DNA of 40,846 nt, taken from a virus. Below, in pieces: positions 2,174 through 39,853 of the stretch. The notes beneath the pieces were generated by a model, which was not told the DNA's origin, searched no databases, and worked only from the letters and a program-made list of their open reading frames with translations. The DNA lies in the IMG/VR virus record IMGVR_UViG_3300006802_000023, positions 1 through 40,846 of that record; one strand, written 5' to 3'. Both the position numbers and the translations under genes were made by a program. Within the stretch, counting starts at the first letter, position 1. Each line of letters begins with the position of its first letter.

Positions 2174-2443
2174 TTATCTCTCCTCGCTTAAGTTTACTGG
2201 GTATTTAGCTATTTGTTTAGGTGTTTCAAATGCAAAATGAGGCATACACCAGACTATCAGCTGGGCTCTGCTTCTTAGGTGCATTTTCTTGTAAATGTTC
2301 TTTAGGTGGAACTCTACAGTCTTAGTAGTTACAAATAAATGATTACCTATTTCTTTATTAGACATTCCTCTAGTGATTAGTTCAGCTATCTCAGCCTCCC
2401 TAGATGATAGTCCCTTTTGTGTGATTAGTAAGTTTCTTAACAT
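2174..2443 (-). CDS. LuxR/GerE-type helix-turn-helix regulator, DNA-binding domain only
   Basis: An 89-residue protein. Residues 12-66 match the LuxR C-terminal DNA-binding domain: LSSREAEIAELITRGMSNKEI, then VTTKTVEFHLKNIYKKM. This contains the conserved E, L-x-x-G-x-x-N-K-E-I and the T-V-x-x-H-x-x-x-I-x-x-K-x-x recognition helix. There is no receiver or autoinducer domain, so it is a stand-alone effector like the smallest GerE proteins. It is the first gene of the leftward unit, with a good ribosome-binding site (AAGGAG) and a candidate promoter at 2466-2494. It probably acts as the phage's transcription switch and may bind the divergent intergenic region beside it. Confidence 0.85.
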   Translation of the reverse strand: MLRNLLITQKGLSSREAEIAELITRGMSNKEIGNHLFVTTKTVEFHLKNIYKKMHLRSRAQLIVWCMPHFAFETPKQIAKYPVNLSEER

Positions 2444-2465
2444 GTTTTATCTCCTTGTTGACTTA

Positions 2466-2494
2466 GTTATATGTACAGATTTTTATTAATTCAA
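2466..2494 (-). promoter_or_regulatory. Candidate promoter for the leftward regulator operon
   Basis: On the minus strand, TTGAAT (2494-2489) and TATAAC (2471-2466) have the ideal 17-base spacing. Transcription would start near 2459, giving a short leader that carries AAGGAG before the ATG at 2443. It is nearly back-to-back with the plus-strand candidate promoter at 2506-2535. Confidence 0.55.
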
Positions 2495-2505
2495 ATAAAT
2501 AATGC

Positions 2506-2535
2506 TTGATTTGTGTGGTGTGTTGTAATTATTAT
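2506..2535 (+). promoter_or_regulatory. Candidate promoter for the structured intergenic RNA
   Basis: TTGATT (2506-2511) and TATTAT (2530-2535) are spaced by 18 bases. The predicted start (about 2541) falls at the beginning of the first long helix of the structured RNA. The -10 region is inside a 16-base element, TTGTAATTATTATGAT (2523-2538), that recurs exactly at 3496-3511 upstream of another plus-strand gene. That recurrence supports it being a real phage promoter or operator element. Confidence 0.55.
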
Positions 2536-2539
2536 GATT

Positions 2540-2960
2540 TTACTAGATCGACGGCTAAAAACGGTGGGGTCTAGTAAATGAGGAGCTACCACGGGAACCA
2601 CAAAGCTCCAAACATGATGTGGCATCAACTTAGCCTTTCATGTACTCGGAAGAATGATAGTAAGTCGAGATAGCATGATTGGATAGACCTAGAGAGAAAA
2701 GAATAGGATTGCTCTAGTTGGTGTTTTGGTAAGTGTGTGGTGGTGTAGTTATAGTGCTGCAAGTGACAAATAGGGTCCGAATTACCAAATGATTAAGAGC
2801 TATATAAAACTTAATCCAATATACTGCGATTCACTCACCGAGTCCTAGTGTTAGTTACGCACTCCTAGTTCATTCATTTTTGGATGTTCTAGGGGATTGT
2901 GTAACTTCAACCAGCTCAAGCATCTATCCGTTCCTAATGTTACTCAATAACAATAAGAGT
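2540..2960 (+). ncRNA. Candidate large structured non-coding RNA
   Basis: This stretch has no credible ORF but many helices. Hairpin 2539-2549/2568-2578 has 11 bp with one G-U. Hairpin 2582-2587/2604-2609 has 6 bp. 2612-2617/2638-2643 has 6 bp. 2689-2694/2712-2717 has 6 bp. 2725-2732/2782-2789 has 8 bp. 2791-2797/2810-2816 has 7 bp. A compound hairpin at 2853-2906 has 8 bp, an internal loop, 7 bp, a 2x2 loop, 5 bp and a six-base loop. A long-range helix, 2681-2687 with 2923-2929 (7 bp, plus one possible G-U), closes a multibranch domain. The upstream promoter starts at the first helix. A run of ten A lies just after (2962-2971). No Rho-independent terminator is visible, so the 3' end is uncertain. 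The strand is inferred from the promoter. It does not match a tRNA or any class I can name by eye. It could be an ornate phage RNA, an antitermination leader or a replication preprimer. Confidence 0.6.
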
Positions 2961-2976
2961 TAAAAAAAAAATAGGT

Positions 2977-3005
2977 TTTACAAGAAAACTCAATAAGTAT
3001 ATAAA
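2977..3005 (+). promoter_or_regulatory. Candidate promoter for the RNase HI gene
   Basis: TTTACA (2977-2982) and TATAAA (3000-3005) have 17-base spacing. The start point would be near 3012, leaving a leader of about 15 bases that carries AGGAGA before the ATG at 3027. A second upstream promoter (2506-2535) could also read through the structured RNA into this gene. Confidence 0.5.
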
Positions 3006-3026
3006 GTATATATAGGAGACTAAATT

Positions 3027-3458
3027 ATGGAGATATATACAGATGGTGCTTGTCACCCAAATCCCGGCAAAGGTTCTTGGGCTTTCATAGTTGTTAATAA
3101 TAATACTTTATTACATGAAAATTATGGTCTAGTGGAAGAAACAACTAATAATCGAATGGAATTAAAAGCAGTAATTGAAGCCATTAAATACTGTGAAGGT
3201 AAATCATTAACAATTTACTCAGACTCTTTATTAACCGTTAATACTTATAATGAGTGGATGCACAAATGGGTTAAAAAAGGGTTTAAGAAAAAAAAGAATG
3301 TTGATCTAGTTAAAGAGTTATTAGAACTTTATTCACCTGAAATTAATCTAAAACATATCAAAGCTCATAATGGCCATATATGGAATGAATATGTAGACGG
3401 TATTTGTAATAAGTCTTTAGGCTTGGATTTCTGCCCTTATACAGAACTCTTTTGCTAA
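3027..3458 (+). CDS. rnhA: Ribonuclease HI
   Basis: A 143-residue protein of normal RNase HI length. The catalytic carboxylates are visible as D6 (YTDGA), E45 (NNRMELKAVIEA), D66 (YSDS) and D124 (EYVDG). H114 (KAHNGH) is at the flexible catalytic-histidine position. It cleaves RNA in RNA-DNA hybrids, which removes primers or R-loops. Lys-rich residues 80-92 occupy the place of the basic handle that grips the hybrid. It is the first gene after the structured intergenic region, with its own AGGAGA site. RNase H beside the probable control region of a genome lacking a polymerase suggests a role in replication priming or R-loop processing, which is inference. Confidence 0.93.
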   Translation: MEIYTDGACHPNPGKGSWAFIVVNNNTLLHENYGLVEETTNNRMELKAVIEAIKYCEGKSLTIYSDSLLTVNTYNEWMHKWVKKGFKKKKNVDLVKELLELYSPEINLKHIKAHNGHIWNEYVDGICNKSLGLDFCPYTELFC

Positions 3459-3495
3459 ACATTATGTAAAAATACATAATTCTATGCGTAAACAT

Positions 3496-3511
3496 TTGTA
3501 ATTATTATGAT
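3496..3511 (+). promoter_or_regulatory. 16-base repeated element upstream of the winged-helix gene
   Basis: TTGTAATTATTATGAT here is an exact copy of 2523-2538. Both copies sit a short distance upstream of a plus-strand transcript and contain a TATTAT-like -10 (3503-3508 here). No good -35 hexamer is visible for this copy. It could be a shared promoter core or an operator for a phage regulator. Confidence 0.45.
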
Positions 3512-3545
3512 CTCACTTTCTAATATCTTTATAGGAGGTGAGAAC

Positions 3546-3803
3546 ATGAACACTCAACTAAATGCATGGGATGCAATACAACCCACAATTCATAAAAAAA
3601 GAAACACTGTTTTAAACGCAATCAAAGAAATAAACGGTGGAACATTAAACGATATAGCCCATTACCTAGACTGGCCCATTAATCGTGTTAGCGGACGTGT
3701 GACAGAGTTACACAGAAAAGGTAAGATCATAAATGATGGAACTAAGATCAATCCCGAATCAGGTAAACCTAATAAAATATGGAGAGCCAAAGATGCTATT
3801 TAA
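3546..3803 (+). CDS. Small winged-helix DNA-binding protein
   Basis: An 85-residue protein. Residues 20-66 read as a winged helix-turn-helix (VLNAIKEINGGTLNDIAHYL, then INRVSGRVTELHRKGKI, then a short hairpin). This is the pattern of MarR-like or replication-initiator wHTH domains. The frame is open from 3507, but I place the start at 3546 because of the very strong AGGAGGTGAG nine bases upstream. It is the first gene of a run of small overlapping genes and may regulate them. Confidence 0.75.
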   Translation: MNTQLNAWDAIQPTIHKKRNTVLNAIKEINGGTLNDIAHYLDWPINRVSGRVTELHRKGKIINDGTKINPESGKPNKIWRAKDAI

Positions 3804-4044
3804 CTGGGAGCCAGACAAAGATGGCGTAAGTATTGAAGATTTCTTTAAAAGATGGTGGACAGATTGGAAACGCTTATTAACCCTACAAAGAGGTATTGGA
3901 GATATAGGACATGCATGGATTAATATTTGGACAGAGCCTAGAAAATATTTACCTGTTAGTGGCCATTTATATCATTTTGGTCATGTGGTGGGGATATTAG
4001 TTTCTTTATTAACCCTAACTATTATTCTTTTGGCCGTTCTATGA
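3793..4044 (+). CDS. Small protein with C-terminal membrane segment
   Basis: An 83-residue protein rich in Trp and charged residues over positions 1-60, with one hydrophobic segment at about 63-82 ending at the C-terminus (tail anchor). The frame is open from 3733. The ATG at 3793 has GGAG at 8 bases and only a short overlap with the previous gene, so I prefer it. It overlaps the next gene by ATGA. The tail-anchored layout fits a protein displayed on the cytoplasmic face of the inner membrane. Function unknown. Confidence 0.65.
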   Translation: MLFNWEPDKDGVSIEDFFKRWWTDWKRLLTLQRGIGDIGHAWINIWTEPRKYLPVSGHLYHFGHVVGILVSLLTLTIILLAVL

Positions 4045-4265
4045 AAACTCAATTAATTGAGGGAGATATTCAAGAAATATTGGATCATCTGGCAGGTGTT
4101 TTAAATAAACACACAGTATTATTCCAAGAAGTTAAAAGATTTCAGCAACTTACTATTAAGAATCAAAAAATAATAAACAAAAACACAGAGACTTTCAATA
4201 AAAGGATTGAAGCCCTTGAAAAGACTGTCTCTTTGTTAACCTTAAAACAGGAGAACCCACAATGA
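4041..4265 (+). CDS. Small coiled-coil protein
   Basis: A 74-residue protein, almost all helical, with heptad-like spacing of Leu, Ile and Val in residues 8-68, suggesting a coiled coil. It is coupled by ATGA overlaps to the tail-anchored protein before it and the gene after it. It may oligomerise with one of them. No family recognised. Confidence 0.65.
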   Translation: MKTQLIEGDIQEILDHLAGVLNKHTVLFQEVKRFQQLTIKNQKIINKNTETFNKRIEALEKTVSLLTLKQENPQ

Positions 4266-4522
4266 CAGAATCAATCATAGCATCATGTCAAATATATGCC
4301 CTCAACCTAGAATGGCTAAAAGGTATGGAATATCAAGTAGAAACAAGCGATAAACACGCCTACACATATATTCAAGCATGTATGGAACAATGGGACAACC
4401 TTAGAGAAGTATTAGGGGAAGAAATCTTCTTTAAAGTGCTAGATACATCAACTAAAATTGGTAAGTTTGGACCAATTCTAACTATGGGGATTTATGAGAA
4501 AGTATTACAGAGAGTTACTTAA
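4262..4522 (+). CDS. Hypothetical protein
   Basis: An 86-residue soluble, mixed helical protein. It overlaps its upstream neighbour by ATGA (AGGAG lies 10 bases upstream of its ATG) and the next gene by 29 bases. No domain recognised. Confidence 0.65.
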   Translation: MTESIIASCQIYALNLEWLKGMEYQVETSDKHAYTYIQACMEQWDNLREVLGEEIFFKVLDTSTKIGKFGPILTMGIYEKVLQRVT

Positions 4523-4679
4523 CTCTGTATTAGAAGAAAGAACCAGACTAGAACAAAGATTAAGTGAATTAAGATTACAACAAATGGCTATTGAAGCCGA
4601 ATTGGAGAAAATAGATGAGAAAGAAATTAGTCGCAGCTACTACAACAGCAGCAATTCTAACAACAATGACGGTTTATAA
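4494..4679 (+). CDS. Small coiled-coil protein overlapping the protease gene
   Basis: A 61-residue protein. Residues 5-45 are a strongly heptad-like charged helix (LEERTRLEQRLSELRLQQ), and the tail is Ser/Asn-rich. It overlaps the preceding gene by 29 bases and the protease start by 65 bases in a different frame. The Shine-Dalgarno is weak, so translation probably depends on coupling. The helical part looks like a real protein. The Asn/Ser tail is simply what this frame reads across the protease signal sequence. Confidence 0.5.
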   Translation: MRKYYRELLNSVLEERTRLEQRLSELRLQQMAIEAELEKIDEKEISRSYYNSSNSNNNDGL

Positions 4680-5667
4680 AGATGAAGTGAAAGATAAGGC
4701 AATTCGTGTTGCCAAACCTACTCAATATGTAATGTATGAAAAAGACAACTTTAAAAACATGACTGTACTAGACGAAAAACCTATTTTAATTAACTCAGAC
4801 AAGTACAAAGTCGTGGAAAATAAAGTATATACAACACAATCCTCCTGTAGATTAGATCCTCCTGATTTAGACCCAACACCAAGCAAAGGTGTGATACCAT
4901 GGGGTATTAGTAAGGTAAAAGCATTGGAGGCCCAAAGTGTTAATGATGCTAGAAATGTTGTTGTCTGTGTTGCCGATACTGGCGTGGCACCTCATCCTGA
5001 CATACCTCTTGTGGGAGAATACAACGCGGTTTCATCACAACCGACGACCGGTGATCCTAATGGGCATGGTACTCATGTGGCTGGTACTATTAGCGCAATT
5101 AACAATGAACATTTTGTCGTTGGTGTTAGCCAGGCTCCAATATTCTCAAGCCGCGTTCTGGACTCATGGGGCTCTGGACGTTCTGCCGATATAGCTAGAG
5201 GAATCGCAGCCTGTGTCGATAAAGGAAACGCTAAAGTTATTAATCTTTCTCTTGGTAGTCCTGCTCGTTATGGTGTTGATGAACTTATCTATGAATCAAT
5301 CCAATATGCTCACAATAAAGGGGCAATCACAGTATGTGCCAACGGAAATGACGGAGGCGATGTCGGATACCCTGCAAAATACTGCAAATATGCCGTTGCA
5401 GCTTCAGATAGTAGAGACAGAATAGCCTCATTTAGCTCTAGAGGCCCTGAGACTGACGTAATAGCTCCAGGGGTAGACATTGTATCAACTTCCAACAAAG
5501 GCGGCACAGAGATCATGTCAGGCACTTCTATGGCCACTCCTCATGTGTCCGGTGCTATTGCTTTAATGCTTGCTCAAGGTCGTATGATGTTAGGAGTAGA
5601 TGACATTGGCTTGTCTAAAGACGAACAAGGCAGAGGTCGGTTAAACGCTCTGGAGACTGTAAAATGA
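4615..5667 (+). CDS. Subtilisin-like serine protease (peptidase S8) with N-terminal export signal
   Basis: A 350-residue protein. The catalytic triad is intact: D121 (CVADTG), H151 (NGHGTHVAGT) and S305 (SGTSMATPH), with the oxyanion Asn near N245 (ANGND). Residues 1-20 form a basic then hydrophobic signal or anchor. Residues 21-90 resemble a short propeptide or linker, and the subtilase domain runs from about 95 to the end. GGAG lies 8 bases before the ATG. It would cut proteins outside the cytoplasm if exported. It sits in the early small-gene cluster, not the lysis or virion cluster, so its target could be a host envelope protein, a competing phage or predator surface, or a virion protein. 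The early, exported position makes an envelope target most likely, as inference. Confidence 0.93.
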   Translation: MRKKLVAATTTAAILTTMTVYKDEVKDKAIRVAKPTQYVMYEKDNFKNMTVLDEKPILINSDKYKVVENKVYTTQSSCRLDPPDLDPTPSKGVIPWGISKVKALEAQSVNDARNVVVCVADTGVAPHPDIPLVGEYNAVSSQPTTGDPNGHGTHVAGTISAINNEHFVVGVSQAPIFSSRVLDSWGSGRSADIARGIAACVDKGNAKVINLSLGSPARYGVDELIYESIQYAHNKGAITVCANGNDGGDVGYPAKYCKYAVAASDSRDRIASFSSRGPETDVIAPGVDIVSTSNKGGTEIMSGTSMATPHVSGAIALMLAQGRMMLGVDDIGLSKDEQGRGRLNALETVK

Positions 5668-5885
5668 ATAAGGCTGGATATGCGTTAGCCTTTTTAGGGC
5701 TGTGTCTACTGATTACGCTAGGTTACGACGGATATTTGTTTTTATCCGGTGGAACTGAGGCCACTATTAGTTGGATGATCTACGAAATGGCCTATGATAA
5801 ACCTATATTTGTCTCTTTGATAAGTTGGTTTATAGGCCTTATGCAAGGTCATCTATTCTGGCAAATGAAGAGACCAAATGACTAA
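5664..5885 (+). CDS. Small two-helix membrane protein
   Basis: A 73-residue protein with hydrophobic segments at about residues 5-27 and 49-67, separated by a short loop. It overlaps the protease stop by ATGA, so the two proteins are made together. It could anchor, escort or regulate the exported protease, or act as a holin-like pore. The neighbour argues for the former, but this cannot be shown from sequence. Confidence 0.7.
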   Translation: MNKAGYALAFLGLCLLITLGYDGYLFLSGGTEATISWMIYEMAYDKPIFVSLISWFIGLMQGHLFWQMKRPND

Positions 5886-5910
5886 CATAGACGATAAGGG
5901 GCGGGGATGA
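5878..5910 (+). CDS. Ten-residue mini-ORF, copy A (coupling element)
   Basis: A ten-codon frame reading MTNIDDKGRG then TGA. It begins inside the last codons of the membrane-protein gene, and its TGA overlaps the ATG of the next gene. A second copy at 6546-6578 reads MSYIDDKGRG and has exactly the same overlaps. The paired conservation suggests it carries ribosomes between genes. The G-rich AAGGGGCGGGG also supplies the ribosome-binding site for the next gene. Confidence 0.4.
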   Translation: MTNIDDKGRG

Positions 5911-5915
5911 GTAAG
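5885..5915 (+). repeat. 31-bp direct repeat, copy A
   Basis: Identical to 6553-6583. It contains the end of the mini-ORF, the G-rich ribosome-binding site and the first three codons (MSK) of the downstream gene. It points to duplication of a translation-start cassette. Confidence 0.9.
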
Positions 5916-6224
5916 CCGAGAGAGTTTTGGATAATTGAAGACAAAGTAGTTAAAGGCTTATTTGTTAATATCTTACAAGATGCAAATGAAGCTGATGAAT
6001 TGTGCCTAAAAGATGAAGAAATAATCCACGTAATAGAATACTCGGCTTATGAGGAGTTGCGTAAATATAAGATTGCAGCATTGGTTGATATGCATAAGTT
6101 TAAATCTCAACTCGACATAGCTGTGGAAGCTTTGGAGTATTACACAAACAACCAAAAAGCTGGTTCTTATACTGGTATAGCCAAACAAGCCCTCAAGCGG
6201 CTAGAGGAGAGGTTAGGCGAATGA
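5907..6224 (+). CDS. Hypothetical protein with duplicated C-terminal motif
   Basis: A 105-residue protein, mostly helical after residue 45, ending QALKRLEERLGE. The last twelve residues are identical to those of the gene at 6295-6549. The first three codons are shared with the gene at 6575. Its own core is different, so these look like different small genes placed into a shared start/stop cassette. Start by AAGGGG a few bases upstream. Function unknown. Confidence 0.65.
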   Translation: MSKPREFWIIEDKVVKGLFVNILQDANEADELCLKDEEIIHVIEYSAYEELRKYKIAALVDMHKFKSQLDIAVEALEYYTNNQKAGSYTGIAKQALKRLEERLGE

Positions 6225-6225
6225 G
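6185..6225 (+). repeat. 41-bp direct repeat, copy A
   Basis: Identical to 6510-6550. It encodes the last eleven codons (ALKRLEERLGE) and the stop of the gene at 5907, and includes the ATGA overlap that starts the next frame. The internal AGGAGAGG acts as the ribosome-binding site for that overlapping start. Confidence 0.9.
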
Positions 6226-6298
6226 CGATGGTTTTATGTTTGGTTTTATATTAATGTTATTTATTCAAATTATTATACTTACAATGGTGTTAATATGA
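6221..6298 (+). CDS. 25-residue single-span membrane micro-protein
   Basis: Reads MSDGFMFGFI and continues as an almost wholly hydrophobic segment to residue 25. ATGA overlaps join it to the gene before and the gene after, and AGGAGAGG precedes it. The perfect fit between two coupled genes makes it a credible micro-gene although it is very short. It would insert in the inner membrane. Function unknown. Confidence 0.55.
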   Translation: MSDGFMFGFILMLFIQIIILTMVLI

Positions 6299-6549
6299 CC
6301 GACTACCAAGAGAAATTGGAGCACATGAGGGATGTTGTAAAATCTAACTTTGGCGAGGAATATCCTGACACAGTCCACGGCTATGAACAAGGCTTCAACG
6401 CCCTAATGCCCATAGTGCTGGATTTGGTTGAGGCTATTGAAGATTCTTTAGATACAAAGCCGATGGAGCGAGAACAATATCTTTATGATTGGTTTAATAC
6501 TAAGTTAGGACAAGCCCTCAAGCGGCTAGAGGAGAGGTTAGGCGAATGA
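6295..6549 (+). CDS. Hypothetical protein, second gene with the shared C-terminal motif
   Basis: An 84-residue acidic helical protein ending QALKRLEERLGE, the same end as the gene at 5907-6224, while the rest is unrelated. It is coupled by ATGA to the micro-protein upstream and followed by the second mini-ORF. The sharp boundary between the unique body and the identical end suggests recombination between cassettes. Confidence 0.65.
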   Translation: MTDYQEKLEHMRDVVKSNFGEEYPDTVHGYEQGFNALMPIVLDLVEAIEDSLDTKPMEREQYLYDWFNTKLGQALKRLEERLGE

Positions 6550-6550
6550 G
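6510..6550 (+). repeat. 41-bp direct repeat, copy B
   Basis: Exact copy of 6185-6225. Here the ATGA overlap starts the mini-ORF at 6546 in place of the micro-protein. Confidence 0.9.
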
Positions 6551-6578
6551 TTACATAGACGATAAGGGGCGGGGATGA
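6546..6578 (+). CDS. Ten-residue mini-ORF, copy B (coupling element)
   Basis: Reads MSYIDDKGRG then TGA. It overlaps the stop of the preceding gene by ATGA, and its own TGA overlaps the ATG of the gene at 6575. It matches copy A at 5878 in length, overlaps and eight of ten residues. Confidence 0.4.
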   Translation: MSYIDDKGRG

Positions 6579-6583
6579 GTAAG
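6553..6583 (+). repeat. 31-bp direct repeat, copy B
   Basis: Exact copy of 5885-5915, again supplying the ribosome-binding site and the first codons of the following gene. Confidence 0.9.
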
Positions 6584-6718
6584 GCATGGCCATGGGATAA
6601 GTTCCCAGAAGATCAATCAACATGGGAAGCATGTGTTGAATTATACGAAAAACAAAGTGAATCCTTGCTTATGGCATATAAGTATATTGATGAATTAAAA
6701 AAAGAGCGGGATAAATGA
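6575..6718 (+). CDS. Hypothetical small protein, 47 residues
   Basis: Starts MSKAWPWDKF and is Trp-rich at the N-terminus, helical and charged after residue 17. Its first three residues come from the 31-bp repeat. It overlaps the next gene by ATGA. Unknown function; the tight coupling on both sides supports it being real. Confidence 0.6.
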   Translation: MSKAWPWDKFPEDQSTWEACVELYEKQSESLLMAYKYIDELKKERDK

Positions 6719-7023
6719 AAATAGGAACTCAAGAAGTATTATTGCAATATGGAAATTGGTATGTGACTGATACAGAATATAACTATTGTGGTGAACCATT
6801 CTCTACAGCCATACCATTTTGGATACCTCATGACTTCATTAAAGACAAAGGTCCTATAGAAAAAGAAGAAAAAGGCATGATATACACTGTACAAGTCAAT
6901 GGATTTGACAGGTGGATGGACTACCTTGAAAATAAAGATTGGTTTAATTGGGATGCCAAACTATCACTTATAAGGACTATGCATGAATATCAAGCTTATC
7001 AAAGAAAGAAACAAACGATCTAA
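6715..7023 (+). CDS. Hypothetical protein
   Basis: A 102-residue soluble protein rich in Trp, Tyr and Phe (seven Trp), with no membrane segment. It is coupled by ATGA to the small gene before it and overlaps the small Cys-rich ORF after it by 41 bases. No family recognised. Confidence 0.7.
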   Translation: MKIGTQEVLLQYGNWYVTDTEYNYCGEPFSTAIPFWIPHDFIKDKGPIEKEEKGMIYTVQVNGFDRWMDYLENKDWFNWDAKLSLIRTMHEYQAYQRKKQTI

Positions 7024-7150
7024 AAAAGCCTGCCAAAATAGAAAATGTAATTGTAGCTGTGAATCAGCCTACCGCGCTGGATGGACTGATATGTGGACCA
7101 AAGTACAACCTTTATTGAAAGCGATTGAGCAGGTTCAAGAAAAGGGGTAA
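6983..7150 (+). CDS. Small basic Cys-rich protein, 55 residues
   Basis: ATG at 6983 to TAA at 7150. The N-terminus is very basic (KLIKERNKRSKK), followed by C-x4-C-x-C-x-C, then Trp-containing helical sequence. It begins inside the previous gene in another frame and occupies what would otherwise be a gap before the terminator. The residue pattern suggests a small nucleic-acid or metal-binding peptide. The ribosome-binding site is weak. Confidence 0.5.
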   Translation: MNIKLIKERNKRSKKACQNRKCNCSCESAYRAGWTDMWTKVQPLLKAIEQVQEKG

Positions 7151-7274
7151 CGTCCTTGTAGTCCCCTAGTGTATTTAAAATAACTCATGGAAGATAAGTT
7201 AAATTAATTGTTGCATAACCTAGACCATAGTGCAATAGTATATTTAATAAGTTTCATGACTTATTTCCTTGTTG

Positions 7275-7304
7275 AAGGGCCTAGCAATGGGCCCTTTTTT
7301 ATTT
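7275..7304 (+). terminator. Rho-independent terminator of the first early block
   Basis: AAGGGCC (7275-7281) pairs with GGCCCTT (7290-7296) around an eight-base loop, followed by a T-rich tract to 7304. It ends the 3027-7150 gene run. The non-coding stretch 7151-7274 before it holds nothing else I can identify. Confidence 0.85.
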
Positions 7305-7314
7305 TACAATTTAT

Positions 7315-7512
7315 ATGATGTATAATTGTCCACGCTGTAACGCTAGAATAGATAAAACCTCATATTACGCCTTTGATAAAAAACAATTTAAAGAAACCCT
7401 TTATAAATGTGGATCAAAAGAAATCACTGAAATGGGCCAGATCAGGTGGTTAGTCCATTTTACGCAGTCCGATGAATGTAAAAAGGCTGTACAAAACATT
7501 AATGAGGGTTAA
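7315..7512 (+). CDS. Small zinc-finger-like protein
   Basis: A 65-residue protein with CPRC at residues 5-8 and two later cysteines (KCG near 32, ECK near 55), probably one metal site. The start (ATG at 7315 or 7318) is only about ten bases after the terminator, with no Shine-Dalgarno. TACAAT at 7305-7310 could be a -10 for a leaderless transcript, though its -35 is poor. Function unknown. Confidence 0.65.
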   Translation: MMYNCPRCNARIDKTSYYAFDKKQFKETLYKCGSKEITEMGQIRWLVHFTQSDECKKAVQNINEG

Positions 7513-7521
7513 AATAATTAT

Positions 7522-7734
7522 ATGAAGCTTACTGACTTACAACATGCAGGATTAACGAACGGCTCCGTGGGAGACTACTCCGAGCTAGTAAACTCCAATT
7601 TAACCTCATTAAGAGGTCGCTGTTTGAATCCGACTTGTCATGGTACAAGAATGTTTGACCATTCAGAAAAAGCTACTGATTTTTGCCCCAGTTGTGGGCA
7701 CGCAATTAAATGGGAACGTCGTGGAGCTAAGTGA
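7522..7734 (+). CDS. Small zinc-ribbon protein
   Basis: A 70-residue protein. The C-terminal half has C-x4-C (CLNPTC) and CPSC (with GHAIKW after it), a compact treble-clef or zinc-ribbon pattern. It ends with a basic tail. It overlaps the next ORF. Probably nucleic-acid or protein binding; specific role unknown. Confidence 0.65.
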   Translation: MKLTDLQHAGLTNGSVGDYSELVNSNLTSLRGRCLNPTCHGTRMFDHSEKATDFCPSCGHAIKWERRGAK

Positions 7735-7960
7735 CCCTCTGTTCGATATAACCATTGAAGAAATGAGGGAGCATCCCAAGTTTCGAAAAGTAGCTGATTA
7801 TATTTGTTTTGAACTATTATCCGAAGGCGTGGTTCACTACAAGATTGCTGAAGACAACCTAGATGATCTTCTAAAAGAGATATTCGACGATATTCAGCCT
7901 GAGATTGAAAAGAAGCTACAGGAGTATAAAGACAACATAAGTAAAAACAAAATTAACTAG
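7721..7960 (+). CDS. Hypothetical acidic protein
   Basis: About 79 residues from a GTG at 7721. The frame is open from 7640, but the part before 7721 only shadows the zinc-ribbon gene. GGGAA lies just upstream of the GTG. The protein is acidic and helical (EDNLDDLLKEIFDDIQ). The next gene follows after eight bases with a good AGGAG. Start uncertain and function unknown. Confidence 0.5.
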   Translation: MELSDPLFDITIEEMREHPKFRKVADYICFELLSEGVVHYKIAEDNLDDLLKEIFDDIQPEIEKKLQEYKDNISKNKIN

Positions 7961-7968
7961 GAGACATT

Positions 7969-8877
7969 ATGTATAACCCACATAAACAGCTTGTAGGCTT
8001 TGACCTACATGATCCAAAGAATGTTGGAAGACCAAGATATTTCCCAATACAGAAAATAACAGAACTAGCAGACCATTATGTGTCTTGTGATGAAATTATG
8101 ATGGCATTGGAGTTGTTAAAAATGCTGCCTGGATGGTATAGAGACAACGTGCCTGAAGAAATTGTACAAATGAGAAAAGATATTCTTCAAAAGGTAGTCA
8201 CAATAAAAGACTATTGCGGAGATACAAAAGAAGAAGACATCCAACCAGACTTTATCCATTACTTTGAAAACTTCCCTAGATCAGCAGGTATTTTCTATTT
8301 TGTTAAAGAGTTAAATAAAAGAGGTATAGAGCCAAGCATATATGAATATGGTCCTGCGGCCTTTTGGGTAGTGGCTGGACTTAAAAAGCTAGGTCTAAAG
8401 TTTGACTATACCTGTGTATGTATCAACGCCAACGCCGATAAGAAAGCCAGGGAAGAAGGTCTCGTTAAAGACCCTGATGAATTAAAGAATGAATACAAAA
8501 TGTATATATGCATGGAAGTTGCAGAGCATTTATGGCACTTAGAGGACTTAGAACACCTATATAGAAAGCATTTTCCTCAAGACATGGACATCATGTACAT
8601 TACAACACCATACGGAGCTTGTGGTGGAGGTCTTCCAAACTGGAAGGAACACGTATTAGGTCATTTAAGAACCTTTACTTTTAGTGAATTTGCTCAGGCT
8701 CTACAAAAGTTCTTCCCAGAAGTATTATGGTCATTTTTCAGCTATGGTACATTGCTGGCCTTTGGTGCTAGAAATTGGGATAGAGATAAAGAAGTTATAG
8801 ATGCAACATTTAAAAGTATTGAAAAGGTAGACTTATATGAAGAAAAAGGAATCAGAAAAGTTTCTTTCAAAGGGTGA
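7969..8877 (+). CDS. SAM-dependent methyltransferase-like protein
   Basis: A 302-residue protein. Residues about 170-240 resemble the second half of a class I methyltransferase of the methyltransf_11/23 type: ICMEVAEHLWHLEDLEHL, then MYITTPYGACGGG, then H-x-R-T-F-T-F-S-E-F. The SAM-binding motif I is degenerate (around YEYGPAAFW, residues 125-133), so activity is not assured. The first 100 residues are an extra helical domain. AGGAGA precedes the ATG. A sugar or protein methyltransferase that works with the glycosyltransferase at 22972 is possible, but nothing links them directly. Confidence 0.6.
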   Translation: MYNPHKQLVGFDLHDPKNVGRPRYFPIQKITELADHYVSCDEIMMALELLKMLPGWYRDNVPEEIVQMRKDILQKVVTIKDYCGDTKEEDIQPDFIHYFENFPRSAGIFYFVKELNKRGIEPSIYEYGPAAFWVVAGLKKLGLKFDYTCVCINANADKKAREEGLVKDPDELKNEYKMYICMEVAEHLWHLEDLEHLYRKHFPQDMDIMYITTPYGACGGGLPNWKEHVLGHLRTFTFSEFAQALQKFFPEVLWSFFSYGTLLAFGARNWDRDKEVIDATFKSIEKVDLYEEKGIRKVSFKG

Positions 8878-9124
8878 TAAACTCCCTGAAGAAATAGTGG
8901 CTTACAACGAAGAATTTTCTAAACGATACGACAAGGCGATCAAGGCTTTTGCTAAAGATCACCCCAATACATTCCCGCCAATTATACAAATGGAGGACGG
9001 AAGATGCAGATGGATGAACCGAAAAGAGAGAAGGCTAAGGCAGAAGGAAGCAGCGAGACTAGAAAAGAAAAGAAGAAAGAACTTCGGGTCAACTACCAAA
9101 CACTCAACGTATCCATTTCTATGA
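8837..9124 (+). CDS. Small basic protein
   Basis: A 95-residue protein, charged, with a strongly basic helix at 60-83 containing MNRKERRLRQKEAARLEK. It overlaps the methyltransferase-like gene by 41 bases and the ParB-like gene by 121 bases in different frames. The basic segment suggests nucleic-acid binding. The large overlaps lower confidence, but the first two-thirds are unique sequence. Confidence 0.5.
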   Translation: MKKKESEKFLSKGDKLPEEIVAYNEEFSKRYDKAIKAFAKDHPNTFPPIIQMEDGRCRWMNRKERRLRQKEAARLEKKRRKNFGSTTKHSTYPFL

Positions 9125-9603
9125 TTAAACCTTTTCAGGGAGAGCTTAAGTCTCTCTCTAAAGAGGATTATCTGAAATTAAAAAACGAGATCATCAACAA
9201 TGGCTTTTGTATGCCCTTACATCTTTGGTATGACACTGAAGCCAAGGATTACAAACTCTTAGACGGGCATCAACGATTTAGAGTATTGGGCAAGATGATG
9301 GAAGAAGGCTATAAGGTTCCCGAAAGATTACCTTGTCAGGTATTGCTAGAGGCCACAAGGGAACAGGCCAAAGGTATATTGTTAGCCTTTTGTTCTCAAT
9401 ATGGGAAGATGACAAATGAGAGTCTTTTTGAATACTTATTTGATTCTGGTATTGATCCAAGTGAATATATTGATAGGTTTTCAATAGATGCTATTGACGA
9501 TAAGCACTTTTTTGATGAATACTTCAGTGATGAAATTCCCGAAGAAAAAGAAACGTGCCCAGCGTGCGGAAAATCCGTTCAAACCAAAAAGAAAGGTAGA
9601 TAA
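9004..9603 (+). CDS. ParB/Spo0J-like nuclease-domain protein
   Basis: A 199-residue protein. Residues 30-120 match the phage ParB-like domain: LKSLSKEDYLKLKNEIINNG, then the hallmark LLDGHQRFRVL, then PCQVLLEATREQAKG. The C-terminus has a CPAC knuckle. Such proteins bind DNA and some cut it; they are often neighbours of phage methylases and nucleases. I keep the start at 9004 (GGAGG seven bases upstream) rather than the ATG at 9121, because the family's conserved N-terminal strand (VNYQTLNVSIS) lies before 9121. It overlaps the HNH gene. Confidence 0.8.
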   Translation: MQMDEPKREKAKAEGSSETRKEKKKELRVNYQTLNVSISMIKPFQGELKSLSKEDYLKLKNEIINNGFCMPLHLWYDTEAKDYKLLDGHQRFRVLGKMMEEGYKVPERLPCQVLLEATREQAKGILLAFCSQYGKMTNESLFEYLFDSGIDPSEYIDRFSIDAIDDKHFFDEYFSDEIPEEKETCPACGKSVQTKKKGR

Positions 9604-9808
9604 TGACAATATTGAGACTGTTAGGAACCAACCTTGTGTCGTCTGCGGAGTATTTCCTGTTGACGTTCATCATATTACTTCCCGTGGTGCTGGCGGCGGG
9701 GATGAGCTTAGTAATCTTATTAGCCTATGTCGTAAGCATCATGTAGAGGTACACAAAATTGGACGAGAAACCTTCTTTAGAAAATACGGACTTGAAAAGA
9801 CACTTTGA
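9530..9808 (+). CDS. HNH endonuclease
   Basis: About 92 residues from ATG 9530. A basic N-terminus is followed by the HNH core: QPCVVCG, VDVHHITSRGAGGGDELSNL and LCRKHHVEVH. The metal-binding cysteines, the paired catalytic histidines and the Asn are all present. The compact form with R-G-A-G-G-x-D resembles phage recombination-type HNH nucleases near ERF, SSB or NinG-like genes, not homing nucleases. Placed just before the recombination block, it probably works on recombination or packaging intermediates. The longer frame from 9488 only shadows the ParB-like gene. Confidence 0.85.
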   Translation: MKFPKKKKRAQRAENPFKPKRKVDNDNIETVRNQPCVVCGVFPVDVHHITSRGAGGGDELSNLISLCRKHHVEVHKIGRETFFRKYGLEKTL

Positions 9809-10622
9809 TAAGTTTCAACTTATTGGTGATAGAAAAGACCATTACATTGATAACTCAAACTCACTAGAATACACAGGTATGTTCTTGGTTCACTTGAAAG
9901 AATCGGGTGAAGAAGAGGACATCCTAGGCAGACCTGTCCAAAAGGCCTATCAATTCATGATGAATGAGCATGAAATCCTAGAAAGAGACAAATTTGAACC
10001 TGAGTTCACAGGATTGTATCGCGTCCATCCTAAGAATTGGTGTTCAGAGCTTCTAGCTTGCCCTGTAAGGCAAATTTACTGGCCACTGGTGGCAATGCTC
10101 TACTATAAGGATTTTAGACGCTTAAAACGGCTTTTAAAGAGCGTGCTTAAACGTGCAGGGTTTTGGCAGGATATTATGCATGAAGGTGAGCCTAATTATG
10201 ATAAACAATTTCACTCCTGGGAGTTGGGTATAAAATTTCCTTCTTTTTTTCTTGGATACTCCATAGTCCTTCGGTTGCTTATGAGGAACTTATACCTAGC
10301 TCCCTTATTTATTCCACTGTATGTAATATTAAATGTACTAGATTTAGTACAACTACATAAATGTGCGATAAACCGCAGAGATCCCAATTTGGGTGCCAGT
10401 ATTAAGGCCTCTAGGTACTTTCCCACCATATTTTCAGAAGCGTATAAACTTTTATACAAGCATGAAAAAGAGCCTATAGGGTTGAAATTCCACAAAAAAA
10501 GCTCGACTTGGTTTTTTGGAGTAGTCGGGCTTATTGTCAGTGTTTCCATGTGGTTATATGTATTATACAGCGCGTATCTATTTGGATTGACTCAACATTG
10601 GTACAAGCCTATCATCGGCTAG
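9759..10622 (+). CDS. Membrane protein of unknown function
   Basis: A 287-residue protein. Residues 1-150 are soluble and charged. Hydrophobic segments follow at about 163-177, 180-196 and 252-275. The start is a TTG at 9759 with GAGG nine bases upstream, overlapping the HNH gene by 50 bases; the next ATG is at 9879. It is unusual for a membrane protein of this size to sit between HNH and ERF genes. It could be an inner-membrane exclusion or host-takeover protein. No family recognised. Confidence 0.65.
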   Translation: MDEKPSLENTDLKRHFDKFQLIGDRKDHYIDNSNSLEYTGMFLVHLKESGEEEDILGRPVQKAYQFMMNEHEILERDKFEPEFTGLYRVHPKNWCSELLACPVRQIYWPLVAMLYYKDFRRLKRLLKSVLKRAGFWQDIMHEGEPNYDKQFHSWELGIKFPSFFLGYSIVLRLLMRNLYLAPLFIPLYVILNVLDLVQLHKCAINRRDPNLGASIKASRYFPTIFSEAYKLLYKHEKEPIGLKFHKKSSTWFFGVVGLIVSVSMWLYVLYSAYLFGLTQHWYKPIIG

Positions 10623-10645
10623 ACAAACAACAAGGAGACTAAGAT

Positions 10646-11296
10646 ATGATCTATAAAAAGATAATAGCAGCTAGGAAAAACGTCAAAAGTCCTAAGAAGA
10701 AAGCTCAAGGATACGGTTATAAATACGCTGATCTAGACGAGGTTATGGGGTGTGTTAATGAAGCCCTTAACGAACAAGGTCTATATGTATTTAACACTAT
10801 ATCCAAAGGTGAAGTAATCACAGAGATTTGTAATGAAGAAGGTACAGAATCCGTAGCAAGCTCAATTCCACTTCCACAAGTACCAGATCCACAAAAGATA
10901 GGCTCAGCCATTACTTATTATAGAAGGTACAATTTGCTTCTATTGATGAACCTTATCCCAGATGACGACGATGGAAACTCAGCTAGACCTGTGCCTAGAG
11001 AGACTCCGAAAAAGCCACAAAATAAACCTAAACTACAAAGTATTCCTAAGGACAGTAACAATATAGTACCAATAGAACAAAGAGAGATTAAGCAGGACGG
11101 AAATCTAGGTGATCTAATCACTCCAATGTATGTTGATTTGGTGAATAGGCTGAGAGTCAAACACCAGTTGACCGAAGAACAGCTTTTAAAGGGAATTAAG
11201 CATAATTTTAATAAAAACAGCGTAGAAGAACTCACAAAGGGTGAATACGTTAAACTAGCAACATTATTGGAGGCAAAAAATGGACGACATAAATAA
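10646..11296 (+). CDS. erf: ERF-family single-strand annealing protein
   Basis: A 216-residue protein. Residues 1-110 carry the ERF signature: YKYADLDEVMGCVNEAL, the DPQKIGSAITYYRRYNLLLL block and the acidic DDDDG motif. ERF proteins anneal complementary single strands in phage recombination, often to circularise or concatenate genomes. The C-terminal part is a Pro/Lys linker followed by a small helical domain. It has AAGGAG before the ATG and overlaps the SSB gene by 17 bases, so the two partners are produced together. Confidence 0.9.
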   Translation: MIYKKIIAARKNVKSPKKKAQGYGYKYADLDEVMGCVNEALNEQGLYVFNTISKGEVITEICNEEGTESVASSIPLPQVPDPQKIGSAITYYRRYNLLLLMNLIPDDDDGNSARPVPRETPKKPQNKPKLQSIPKDSNNIVPIEQREIKQDGNLGDLITPMYVDLVNRLRVKHQLTEEQLLKGIKHNFNKNSVEELTKGEYVKLATLLEAKNGRHK

Positions 11297-11672
11297 AGCT
11301 GAATTAAAAGGAACTGTTACCCAGATATTCAAAGCTCAGACGGTTACAAATGGTAGTTTTTTACTGTCTTTTCAGTTAGCCACAGAGAAGAAGTGGAAAG
11401 GTAAAACATTCACCAAAAAGCACAATATTAATGTGTGGGGAGACAACGGTGCAGGATGCTCCGATATGGTAGCCGGTGATAGGGTCCATGTAATAGGTGA
11501 ATTTGGTACAGAAAAATATACCAAAAAGAACGGTGAAGAGGGTTGGAAAACAGTTGTCGTTGGAAAAACAATAGAGCTTATTAGGGGACAAAGACAACCT
11601 GAGTTTACTGGACAACCATCTGTACCAGACGAATTACCCAATTTTGCACCTGGAAACGAAATCCCGTTTTAA
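11280..11672 (+). CDS. ssb: Single-stranded DNA-binding protein
   Basis: A 130-residue protein with the OB-fold pattern of bacterial SSB: ELKGTVTQIF, FQLATEKKW, HNINVWGD and VHVIGEFGTEKY. It ends GNEIPF, the acidic-hydrophobic tip that recruits partner proteins (canonical DDDIPF). It protects single strands and serves the ERF protein encoded just upstream. A strong terminator follows 18 bases after the stop. Confidence 0.92.
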   Translation: MDDINKAELKGTVTQIFKAQTVTNGSFLLSFQLATEKKWKGKTFTKKHNINVWGDNGAGCSDMVAGDRVHVIGEFGTEKYTKKNGEEGWKTVVVGKTIELIRGQRQPEFTGQPSVPDELPNFAPGNEIPF

Positions 11673-11689
11673 ACTACTCTCCGGTAGTT

Positions 11690-11714
11690 AGCCGCCGCAG
11701 GGCGGCTTTTTTTT
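11690..11714 (+). terminator. Rho-independent terminator after ssb
   Basis: AGCCGCC (11690-11696) pairs perfectly with GGCGGCT (11701-11707) around a GCAG tetraloop, followed by eight T. This is one of the strongest terminators in the window and ends the second early block. Confidence 0.93.
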
Positions 11715-11741
11715 ACTTGATTTATTTTTTTTAACTATATA
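11712..11741 (+). promoter_or_regulatory. Candidate promoter directly after the ssb terminator
   Basis: TTTACT (11712-11717) and TATATA (11736-11741) have 18-base spacing. The start would be near 11748, with AAGGAG before the ATG at 11768. It would re-initiate transcription after the terminator. Confidence 0.4.
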
Positions 11742-11767
11742 CATTGGTCTCAACAAGGAGACAAGAA

Positions 11768-12112
11768 ATGAGTTATTTATATGTCAACGGAATCAACTTT
11801 GAAACAGGCGAGAAAAGAGTATATGTACGACAATATGTTGGCGACTCCCCACAAAAGGGAGACCCAATATCTAAAGCGTACAGTTCGTATCTTGAACCAA
11901 CTAGCCCAAAGAGCTATGGCAAAGGATGCTTTGAAATGACAGTACAAAGACTTAAAGATTACGCCCAGATGCCTGGTAGACATCAGGGACTCAACGCAGC
12001 AGAGGTTTGGATGAAACATCACCCAGACCACGAAGCAACAAAGCAATACATCTTAGAATTACAAGCGGATCAATGCGAAAGGGACTTGCAAAACCACATT
12101 GATAACGCATAG
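11768..12112 (+). CDS. Hypothetical protein, single-gene unit
   Basis: A 114-residue soluble protein, mixed in the first half and helical in the second (GLNAAEVWMKHH onwards). A candidate promoter and a strong terminator enclose it, so it can be expressed on its own. I prefer ATG 11768 because AAGGAG lies 8 bases upstream; the frame is open from 11744. Independent control suggests a regulator or host-takeover protein, as inference only. Confidence 0.7.
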   Translation: MSYLYVNGINFETGEKRVYVRQYVGDSPQKGDPISKAYSSYLEPTSPKSYGKGCFEMTVQRLKDYAQMPGRHQGLNAAEVWMKHHPDHEATKQYILELQADQCERDLQNHIDNA

Positions 12113-12146
12113 TTATGCATCTAGAGGGGTATTTAGAGGCGTGTCT

Positions 12147-12172
12147 GGGGGGGTAAAACCCCCCTTTTTTTT
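12147..12172 (+). terminator. Rho-independent terminator after the single-gene unit
   Basis: A run of seven G (12147-12153) faces six C (12159-12164) across a five-base TAAAA loop and is followed by eight T. The all-G/C stem makes it very stable. Confidence 0.93.
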
Positions 12173-12199
12173 GTCTCGTTGACCTAGGTATGGTATAAT
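12171..12199 (+). promoter_or_regulatory. Extended -10 promoter for the resolvase block
   Basis: TTGTCT (12171-12176) and a perfect TATAAT (12194-12199) have exactly 17-base spacing, plus an upstream TGG that gives an extended -10. The expected start is about 12206, only eight bases before the ATG at 12214, and no Shine-Dalgarno fits in between. The resolvase mRNA is therefore probably leaderless or nearly so. Confidence 0.7.
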
Positions 12200-12213
12200 A
12201 TTATCCTAACGAG

Positions 12214-12633
12214 ATGGAGCTTATATTTTATGCCACTATCGAAGTTGACAGACATTTTACTAAGAAAAACTCCAGGCCTATCTATCGCCGAGGAGGAAAA
12301 CCCTTTATTGGAAAGGATGCAACTTACGCCAAGGCCGAAACAGCTATGGTGTCATGCTTGCGGTCACAAGGAGTCTCACACGGGATCTCTGAACCATTTG
12401 AGTGCGACGTGCACGCGGTGTTCCTCTTCCACTTTGACAATTACTATGTCAAGGATGGCTCAAGAAGATCAAAGCGCGTAGGTGATCTTAGTAATTTATA
12501 TCAAATGCCTGAGGATTGTCTCCAGAAGGCCGGAATCATTAAAGATGATAGCCAGATAGTATCTCATGACTTTTCTCGTCGCCTACCTAGCGATAAGACG
12601 TACCTAGAGATCATCTTGTTAAAACTGGACTGA
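12214..12633 (+). CDS. RusA-like Holliday junction resolvase
   Basis: A 139-residue protein. The N-terminal strand is followed by KKNSRPIYRRGGKPFI, and the catalytic region reads RVGDLSNLYQMPEDCLQKAG then KDDSQIV. This is the RusA arrangement of three essential aspartates (D-L-x-N, E/D-x-L, D-D). RusA cuts four-way junctions and debranches phage DNA before packaging. The start ATG is eight bases from the predicted transcription start. It heads the last early block, with the exonuclease and metalloprotease. Confidence 0.87.
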   Translation: MELIFYATIEVDRHFTKKNSRPIYRRGGKPFIGKDATYAKAETAMVSCLRSQGVSHGISEPFECDVHAVFLFHFDNYYVKDGSRRSKRVGDLSNLYQMPEDCLQKAGIIKDDSQIVSHDFSRRLPSDKTYLEIILLKLD

Positions 12634-12665
12634 TTTTTCTTAAAAAAACTGTAATAATTCTAAAT

Positions 12666-13427
12666 GTGAGCGAACCAAAGATAATAGTATGGGATATTGA
12701 GACCTTACCCAATTTGGATAAAGCAATGGACAATTGGTGTAGGATGCGCGAATACATGACCATCAACGCCGATATGTCCACAATGATATGCTCTGGCTGG
12801 AAAGTCCTTAACTCAAAAAAGACCCATTGTATTAATGCCTGGGATTTTCCCTCCTGGAAGAAGGACGTAAACGACGATAAAGCCCTCTGTGAGGCCGCAT
12901 ACGACGTTCTAAAGGACGCAGATGCAATCATCACCCATTATGGCAAGGGGTTTGATTTTAAGTTCATACAGACCCGTTTATTGATTAATGGCCTTCCAAC
13001 ACTAGATCCAAAAATAACCCATATAGATACCTGTAAAATTGCCCAACAAAACTTAAAATTACAGTCAAATAGACTCAATAATATTGCCCATGAATTAGGC
13101 CTTGGACAGAAGCTAGAAAATGGTGGATGGCCACTATGGAAGAGAGTCTACCAAAGAGATCCAGCCGCACAGAAGAAAATGGCTGATTACTGCAAGCAAG
13201 ACGTAAGGCTATTAGAGAAGGTATATCACCAATTAAAGAGATTTGATAAAAGTATATTAAATTATAGTAGGGATAGTGGTACATTTAATTGTACCAAGTG
13301 TGGATCAAGCAATATGATTAAAAATGGATTTGCATACACACAAAAATACAAATATAGAAGATTACAATGCGGTGACTGTAGAGCCTATAGACGGGGAGAA
13401 TTAATTGTACCTAATGATAAAGGGTAA
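12666..13427 (+). CDS. DEDD-type 3'-5' exonuclease with C-terminal zinc ribbon
   Basis: A 253-residue protein. Exonuclease motifs are D10-I-E12 (VWDIETLPN), D97 (HYGKGFDFKFI) and Y175-C-K-Q-D179, the DEDDy pattern of RNase H-like exonucleases. Residues 209-240 hold two CxxC knuckles (CTKC, CGDC) that form a zinc ribbon for DNA binding. The start is GTG at 12666; no clear Shine-Dalgarno precedes it. With ERF, SSB and RusA it completes a recombination set: an exonuclease to expose ends, an annealing protein and a resolvase. Confidence 0.85.
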   Translation: MSEPKIIVWDIETLPNLDKAMDNWCRMREYMTINADMSTMICSGWKVLNSKKTHCINAWDFPSWKKDVNDDKALCEAAYDVLKDADAIITHYGKGFDFKFIQTRLLINGLPTLDPKITHIDTCKIAQQNLKLQSNRLNNIAHELGLGQKLENGGWPLWKRVYQRDPAAQKKMADYCKQDVRLLEKVYHQLKRFDKSILNYSRDSGTFNCTKCGSSNMIKNGFAYTQKYKYRRLQCGDCRAYRRGELIVPNDKG

Positions 13428-13755
13428 AAAGTGGAAGGTTAAATACCTAAAACGCATGAAAGTTGATGGCCATGATACCGATGGCTATTGTGATCCAAAA
13501 AGACGAGTAATAGCAATTAGAGACAAAGCAGTTAATTCCAATGATTATTATAGAATACTAATGCATGAAGTTTTACACGCAATATGGCATGAGTCTGGTC
13601 TTGATAACACTAATATAGGCATAGATATGGAAGAAGTGATAGTTGAAAACTTTGCTACTGCTTTAAATGAAATATTCAAGGTATCTATTAGAGAAGCAAA
13701 AAGACCTGATATTAAGATAGTTAGAGGACAAGCTCGAAGTGGGCGAGATCGTTAA
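13405..13755 (+). CDS. Small zinc metalloprotease-like protein (HExxH)
   Basis: A 116-residue protein with HEVLH at residues 54-58 in a hydrophobic helix (ILMHEVLHAIWHESG) and a downstream Glu-rich helix (MEEVIVENFATALNE) that could give the third zinc ligand. The pattern is like SprT or ImmA-type domains. It begins with TTG at 13405 (GGGGAG six bases upstream) or ATG at 13414. It overlaps the exonuclease end by 23 bases and ends tail-to-tail with the endolysin gene, overlapping it by 35 bases. It may cut a repressor or a DNA-bound protein; the target is unknown. Confidence 0.75.
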   Translation: MYLMIKGKKWKVKYLKRMKVDGHDTDGYCDPKRRVIAIRDKAVNSNDYYRILMHEVLHAIWHESGLDNTNIGIDMEEVIVENFATALNEIFKVSIREAKRPDIKIVRGQARSGRDR

Positions 13756-22788: not shown

Positions 22789-22994
22789 TAACAATACTCC
22801 TGATACTCTTCTGTCCAAGATGTTAGGGTAACTGGCTCAGATGTGGTCCATATATTTTCACAGCTATATAAAAATCCATTGGTTAAGACCCCGTTACCGT
22901 CTGTTGCCACCGTAATAGTGGCCCCATCCCACAATCCAAATAGGAGTAGTCCGAGGCCATAGTTTAAGTCTTTACTGTACTTTGGAAAGCTCAA
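22788..22994 (-). CDS. Small hypothetical protein
   Basis: A 68-residue protein from a TTG at 22994 (AAGGA eight bases upstream). It overlaps the glycosyltransferase end by 23 bases and the adaptor start by TAATG. It is Trp- and Thr-rich with a short hydrophobic patch (YGLGLLLFGLWDGATITV) and looks beta-rich. Probably a minor virion protein; not recognised. Confidence 0.6.
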   Translation of the reverse strand: MSFPKYSKDLNYGLGLLLFGLWDGATITVATDGNGVLTNGFLYSCENIWTTSEPVTLTSWTEEYQEYC

Positions 22995-33596: not shown

Positions 33597-34012
33597 TACA
33601 CACCTACTTTGGTAGTTTCACCAGGAAAAACCCTTTCAAAAGCTGTTTCTCCATCTTTTTTAGCCAATTCTTCAGCTCTACCCATTTCACATACCTTAAC
33701 ATTCTTCCAAATAATGTACCCAGACTTCGGATATTCACCTCTGCATAGGTTTACTAAGATATTTTTAGGCACTTCCATCCATTTTTGACCATTTCTAGCA
33801 GCAATAGCTATTTTGGTCTCAAAATTCTCGATTTCGTTCTCTCTTTTTACTTCTTTTTTTACTTCTTCTTCAGAAAATCCTACTGGTTCTTTAACTTCAG
33901 GAGACTCAGATTCTAGTGGAGCTGAAATAGCCTCACTTTTCCGGTCTTTTTCCTTTAGCAAGCTGTCCAATATACCATCTTTCGTATTCTGGGTCGTTTG
34001 GTTGTGGGTCAC
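33596..34012 (-). CDS. Hypothetical protein overlapping the terminase nuclease gene
   Basis: A 138-residue protein. Residues 1-70 are acidic and low-complexity. Residues 75-138 look like a small folded domain (QKWMEVPKNILVNLCRGEYP, SGYIIWKNVKVCEMG). The start is GTG at 34012 with a strong AGGAGGAT, inside the 3' end of the nuclease-domain gene (80-base overlap, different frame). Not recognised. Confidence 0.65.
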   Translation of the reverse strand: MTHNQTTQNTKDGILDSLLKEKDRKSEAISAPLESESPEVKEPVGFSEEEVKKEVKRENEIENFETKIAIAARNGQKWMEVPKNILVNLCRGEYPKSGYIIWKNVKVCEMGRAEELAKKDGETAFERVFPGETTKVGV

Positions 34013-39538: not shown

Positions 39539-39853
39539 TCAACTAAAAGTCCCCTCTAAATAACCCTCTCCATATACTCTCATTCTATAAACTAGAGTAG
39601 TAGCACCCAAAGCGGCTAAATAAAAGCTATCTGGGCCCATGTGGTGATGAACCTCTGTAGAACTCATTAACCAACCTAATGTAGTCCCTGCGGGTTGATT
39701 TGTGGTTCCCATGACATATAAAGTACCACCAGAAGCATACTTGATAGTTGTTTGAATTAGGTTTCTCTCGTTCCCAGATACGTTTAATGTCCCTCCAGAA
39801 GCCACAGTTAGCGTATCCACCACTGTAGCATGAGACCTTAATACATCACTCAT
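39539..39853 (-). CDS. Small beta-repeat virion protein
   Basis: A 104-residue protein with repeated short strands rich in Gly, Thr and Ser (TVASGGTLNVSGNERN, YASGGTLYVMGTTNQPAG), a pattern of beta-helical or fibre-associated proteins. Its start overlaps the terminase ATPase stop by 8 bases, so it is translated with it. It is the first gene of the cassette that separates the two terminase halves. Confidence 0.62.
   Translation of the reverse strand: MSDVLRSHATVVDTLTVASGGTLNVSGNERNLIQTTIKYASGGTLYVMGTTNQPAGTTLGWLMSSTEVHHHMGPDSFYLAALGATTLVYRMRVYGEGYLEGTFS

Follow-up and report, generated by a model that had tools for sequence, protein, structure and literature searches.

A long non-coding stretch predicted to fold into a structured RNA lies directly upstream of an RNase HI gene, on the same strand, at positions 2540-2960 of a phage genome (IMG/VR record IMGVR_UViG_3300006802_000023, the whole 40,846 nt of which are called the window here), as is also the case in two other phages, G011 and G018. 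New in this analysis are the long gaps, several of them strongly folded, before some phage RNase HI genes, and the covarying RNA of G011 and G018. The latter hints at a little-known RNA that possibly helps to start DNA copying; the window's own RNA has no proven relative.

Genome and gene neighbourhood

The 123-base exact direct repeat at the end of the record marks the window as a phage genome that is complete and circular, with a length of about 40.7 kb. Among its products are a P22-type portal, Erf, SSB, RusA, a 3′-5′ exonuclease, RNase HI and a GerE-type regulator. Genes run rightward from 3027 to 13755 and leftward in the remainder. Named phage relatives are remote (22-25% identity in the portal), while IMG/VR relatives have major capsid proteins 61-68% identical to that of the window; one IMG/VR fragment, 100% identical, stops short of the RNA.

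The only intergenic gap longer than 300 nt between predicted genes spans 2444-3026. It is flanked by divergent genes, a GerE/LuxR-type HTH regulator on the − strand (2174-2443; Pfam PF00196, E = 3.7e-20) and the RNase HI gene on the + strand (3027-3458). The first-pass annotation had described the region as the only long non-coding stretch, and with 583 nt against 294 nt for the runner-up (7024-7317, which holds a terminator) this was borne out. Small ORFs in the RNA stretch do not exceed 45 aa and none was called as coding; a tRNA search of the whole window found none.

The RNase HI gene was identified by Pfam PF00075 (E = 4.2e-31), PHROG 531 (E = 4.2e-45), alignments and solved RNase HI relatives. 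Judged by the Pfam RNase_H match and the catalytic residues, D6, E45, D66, H114 and D124 (protein numbering), all of which are present, the product is an RNase HI. The gene, starting at 3027, is the most informative neighbour of the RNA, and the early operon begins at this RNA/RNase H region.

Several other features of the genome were observed. The early operon contains a subtilase-family serine protease gene (4615-5667, + strand; Pfam Peptidase_S8, PHROG 3677), an unusual early phage gene, and a second structured gap (7150-7301, + strand) with a long nested hairpin at about 7175-7265 followed by an intrinsic terminator, GGGCC...GGCCC-T6, at about 7276-7301 (z = −4.64 for 7024-7317). Amid the structural genes, a 755-aa protein that combines glycosyltransferase domains of family 2 and group 1 (22972-25239, − strand) is retained by most relatives. 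The large terminase is cleanly split into two − strand genes, 33933-34769 and 39846-40601, which other genes separate by 5.1 kb; the ATPase part corresponds to positions 291-465 of PHROG 38 and the nuclease part to 468-703. The same split is found in G004, G006, G007, G011, G012 and G013, with varying cargo of about 1-5.6 kb. In G013 (L041, 9247-11221), the major capsid gene carries several interrupting insertions, each about 50-240 nt long and containing stop codons; these fold strongly (z = −4.5 on the coding strand), have no Rfam intron match at E ≤ 5, and are either intron-like elements or assembly errors.

Predicted structure of the RNA

The first-pass annotation had proposed a highly structured RNA in this region. 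Folding of the 421 nt of the + strand gave −121.7 kcal/mol, compared with −101.4 ± 5.6 for dinucleotide shuffles, and none of 300 shuffles was as low. The z-score was about −3.7 (−3.79 in one run) on the + strand versus −1.34 on the minus strand. Nine helices of at least 6 bp had a mean pairing probability of at least 0.8, where 3.0 ± 2.0 were expected and one of 60 shuffles reached the same number. The region ranked seventh in fold energy among 390 equal-length stretches of the same genome, most of them coding; since six others, mostly coding, score equally well, fold energy alone is not diagnostic. In 200-nt windows across the region the fold was ordinary, except at 2801-3000. The shuffles, the helix confidence and the strand asymmetry together support a predicted structured RNA on the + strand, and the covarying RNA that G011 and G018 carry in the equivalent position lends this indirect support.

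All of the helices named in the first-pass annotation were recovered in the minimum-free-energy fold, most of them with high pairing probability; 21 helices are predicted in total. The 5′ terminal hairpin (2539-2578, + strand), with an 18-nt loop and an exact 9-nt inverted repeat, has 10 bp as 2540-2549/2568-2577 (p 0.96) and the 11 bp originally given when taken as 2539-2549/2568-2578. It is followed on the same strand by a 6-bp hairpin at 2582-2609 (2582-2587/2604-2609; 16-nt loop, p 0.98) and by a third at 2612-2643, with ACATGA/TCATGT and an inner GGC/GCC (p 0.96).

The 3′ part is predicted to form a large multibranch domain of about 280 nt (2667-2945, + strand; p 0.77-0.96), closed by nested long-range helices with arms more than 200 nt apart. 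One of these, 2680-2687/2923-2930, is an 8-bp helix (p 0.96) that had been given as 7 bp; it is accompanied by 2671-2676/2937-2942 (p 0.96), 2710-2713/2919-2922 and 2716-2722/2910-2916 (p 0.79). On the same strand lie the expected 7-bp hairpin GATTAAG/CTTAATC at 2791-2816 (2791-2797/2810-2816, p 0.82) and a 54-nt compound hairpin at 2853-2906, which has 9+7+6 bp rather than 8+7+5 (p 0.97-1.00). For the 8-bp helix 2725-2732/2782-2789 the exact complementarity was confirmed, but its predicted probability is only 0.45.

A promoter had also been proposed to start transcription at the first helix. The site fits: a sigma70-like TTGATT-18-TATTAT at 2506-2535 on the + strand would give a start at about 2542, the 5′ base of the helix. 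Its strength does not, as a consensus score of 9/12 is weak and no better than chance. At the other end, a composition scan found an AT-rich stretch at 2931-3026 with an A10 run at 2963-2972; its 80-nt windows, lying between the RNA and RNase H, are the most AT-rich in the entire genome, up to 81% AT. No terminator was found between the RNA and RNase H, so their co-transcription is likely. A crude consensus scan of 2380-3120 found no promoter-like site on the minus strand, and the 2444-3026 gap contains no DnaA box.

Searches for relatives of the window RNA

Rfam searches at the gathering score gave no match to a relevant family, and GOLLD, ROOL and OLE were not among the matches for 2400-3100 even up to E ≤ 10 with lax filters. 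These three classes are therefore not supported. The earlier hint at a GOLLD- or ROOL-like ornate RNA was thus not upheld, as there is also no tRNA in the window.

A blastn search of the RNA against phages and plasmids found no homologue; its single match, 48 nt within a coding gene of an unrelated marine phage, was rejected as chance. No DNA match was found in 17 related or RNase-H-bearing viral records, and pairwise alignments among twelve upstream stretches gave nothing clearly above shuffles. A model built from the window hairpins (R2) found no significant relative. Its best local match, in L065 (E = 0.07 within 401 bases), is only a lead; by eye, the loop of the window's first hairpin resembles that of L065. 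Models R1 and R3, from G011/G018, had no match in the window.

A covarying RNA in two other phages

G011 is a portal-related phage with an RNase HI gene and a rearranged gene order, in which about 540 nt of non-coding sequence immediately precede RNase HI on the strand of that gene. G018, which came from a second RNase H query, belongs to another lineage with a RecT-like gene and a different terminase, and its RNase HI follows a structured gap of 600 nt. When a covariance model was built from G011 alone (104 nt), it matched G018 at E = 1.5e-5 in a search of 345 kb, with site and strand as predicted. After fitting, pairing holds for 95% of the alignment cells, and 16 of the 32 pairs differ on both sides, compared with 7.9 in shuffles and 0-5 when the alignment is slid; this alignment leans to structure, while the search match itself is independent of it. 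On this basis, a conserved RNA preceding RNase HI is well supported for these two phages.

The window RNA, a candidate member of the same class, shares with these RNAs its position, strand, size, structured character and RNase HI partner. A recurring module of structured RNA and RNase HI is likely, because the G011-type model finds the RNA of G018 with half of the pairs changed on both sides.

Gaps upstream of other RNase H genes

Some phage RNase HI genes are preceded by gaps of 350-900 nt, several of them strongly folded. Gaps of at least 350 nt were found upstream of 16 of 120 distinct viral RNase H loci, compared with 42 of 780 other genes at the same loci (5.4%; Fisher p = 0.002) and 4 of 78 bacterial RNase H genes (p = 0.05). 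This enrichment is moderate evidence, because the gene caller was rough and the threshold was chosen afterwards. The upstream gaps of L054, L082 and L113 are well folded, and those of L053, L169 and L201 are not by the same measure. In the well-known large phages T5, JSF10, RcZahn and cr118_1, RNase H lies within ordinary operons without such an RNA. Co-inheritance on the RNase H tree was uninformative, as the RNA-bearing rows do not cluster.

In the relative whose RNase H is most like that of the window (L053/L133), the upstream gap contains three DnaA boxes. In L053, a 110-kb viral contig, these are closely spaced copies of TGTGGATAA within 2047-2962, which suggests an origin there; DnaA-box enrichment across the upstream gaps is owed to a single locus. 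Promoter strength was clearly above shuffles in only a few loci, such as L169. There, in the stretch 2069-2480, a near-perfect sigma70 promoter (TTGACA-17-TATAAT) lies about 410 nt upstream of RNase H and is followed by non-coding sequence with hairpins; four tRNA genes come after RNase H.

A possible replication primer

RNase H degrades RNA in RNA-DNA hybrids, and at the ColE1 origin it trims the RNA II primer. We tentatively favour a comparable role for the window RNA, as an R-loop replication primer trimmed by RNase H, because of the RNase H partner, the lack of recognised replisome genes and the AT-rich stretch before RNase H. Transcription would proceed rightward from about 2540 and yield the structured RNA of about 420 nt, in one module with the RNase HI gene. 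The transcript would fold as it is made, and its 3′ part would stay hybridised to the template DNA as an R-loop at the AT-rich 2931-3026. RNase H of the phage, the host or both would trim the hybrid to a primer, from which the host replisome would start phage replication.

In hand for this model are the + strand structure, its position, the intact RNase HI catalytic residues, the AT-rich exit and the covarying RNAs before RNase HI in G011 and G018. The excess of long gaps ahead of viral RNase H genes and the DnaA boxes of L053/L133 also speak for it. Transcription, the R-loop, priming and a job shared with the RNAs of G011 and G018 are what we infer from them. None of the window's genes was recognised as a replication initiator, helicase, primase or polymerase, while Erf, SSB and RusA are present. 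The AT-richness near the start codon and the GC-skew switch are weak origin signs; the skew is uninformative in this respect, since its switch tracks gene direction. Against the model, the window's gap lacks a DnaA box and an antisense promoter. The failure of R1 and R3 to match the window, the ordinary RNase H operons of the large phages and the scatter of RNA-bearing rows on the RNase H tree speak against it too. RNase H as a simple substitute for replisome genes was not supported, as the portal-related G004, G007 and G013 have neither RNase H nor replisome genes. In several larger contigs a long upstream gap occurs together with a DnaB-type helicase gene, which counts against both the substitute and the primer ideas.

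The RNA II/RNase H origin of ColE1 is summarised in PMC9978351. As in ColE1, about 0.4-0.6 kb of non-coding sequence would give a structured transcript, no replication protein was recognised, and RNase H is proposed to act on an RNA-DNA hybrid. Unlike ColE1, it is a phage with RNase HI encoded in cis, directly downstream, its R-loop and priming are predictions, and no promoter for an antisense RNA I was seen (2380-3120, crude scan). For the Synechocystis plasmid pSYSA, a second replicon of this kind, the proposed primer is itself a gene transcript, the ssr7036 mRNA; unlike the window, pSYSA is controlled by RNase E and an antisense RNA, and the passages on it describe no RNase H module next to it (PMC9978351). 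In mammals, RNase H1 likewise produces primers for mtDNA (PMC9410905).

Other readings of the region

We rank the primer first, at roughly a one-third chance, with a leader or antitermination RNA slightly behind, and place a free ornate RNA and a region that is non-functional or acts as DNA below both. The main rival is thus the leader or antitermination RNA, a possible reading in which the region is the cis-acting 5′ UTR of the early operon, acting by attenuation, put-like processive antitermination or translation control, and RNase H is merely the first gene. The early operon does start here, the likely co-transcription fits, and the upstream stretches of L054 and L113 bear terminator-like compound hairpins. 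HK022 put RNA and similar antitermination leaders are structured RNAs at the head of a phage early operon, and the window RNA resembles them in both respects; however, put elements are much shorter, and the window has no Rfam leader match. A length of 420-600 nt is also great for known antiterminator leaders, and similar regions precede RNase H in unrelated phages whose downstream genes differ, which suggests an association with RNase H.

It is rather unlikely that the region makes no functional RNA and is a divergent promoter/control region or a DNA-level origin, with a fold within the usual range of the genome. Nine strong helices against three expected, the + strand bias, the nested long-range closure (p about 0.96) and the equally placed, covarying RNA of G011 and G018 speak against this, whereas coding stretches that equal or better its energy (rank 7 of 390), a promoter at chance level and the lack of a homologue, hence of covariation for the window sequence, would fit it.

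GOLLD and ROOL are large ornate RNAs of phages and prophages (PMC12286853). A free-standing, trans-acting ornate RNA of a new class in their style, processed from the RNase H transcript, is improbable: the size, multibranch domain and long-range helices, the carriage of such RNAs by phage genomes (PMC12286853), the covarying relatives in two phages and tRNA genes near two candidate loci (L154 and L169) are set against the missing Rfam match, terminator of its own and tRNA in the window, and against the fast divergence of the candidates, which show no clear conservation of sequence among themselves. Unlike GOLLD and ROOL, the window RNA is shorter, matches no covariance model and adjoins RNase H rather than a tRNA island, a neighbour that is frequent but not universal for those classes and is absent here.

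Implications for phage replication

In its full form the RNase H-trimmed primer proposal is doubtful: it posits a new and fast-evolving phage RNA class that, in one module with a cis-encoded RNase HI, primes through a trimmed R-loop and so provides an initiator-free origin to phages that lack recognisable replication proteins. If the RNA is trans-acting instead, one more class would join the small number of large phage RNAs known. Coupling of a structured RNA to an RNase H gene would offer a testable answer to how replication starts in small phages without a recognisable initiator, helicase or primase, and would explain why some small phages carry an enzyme that their hosts already have.
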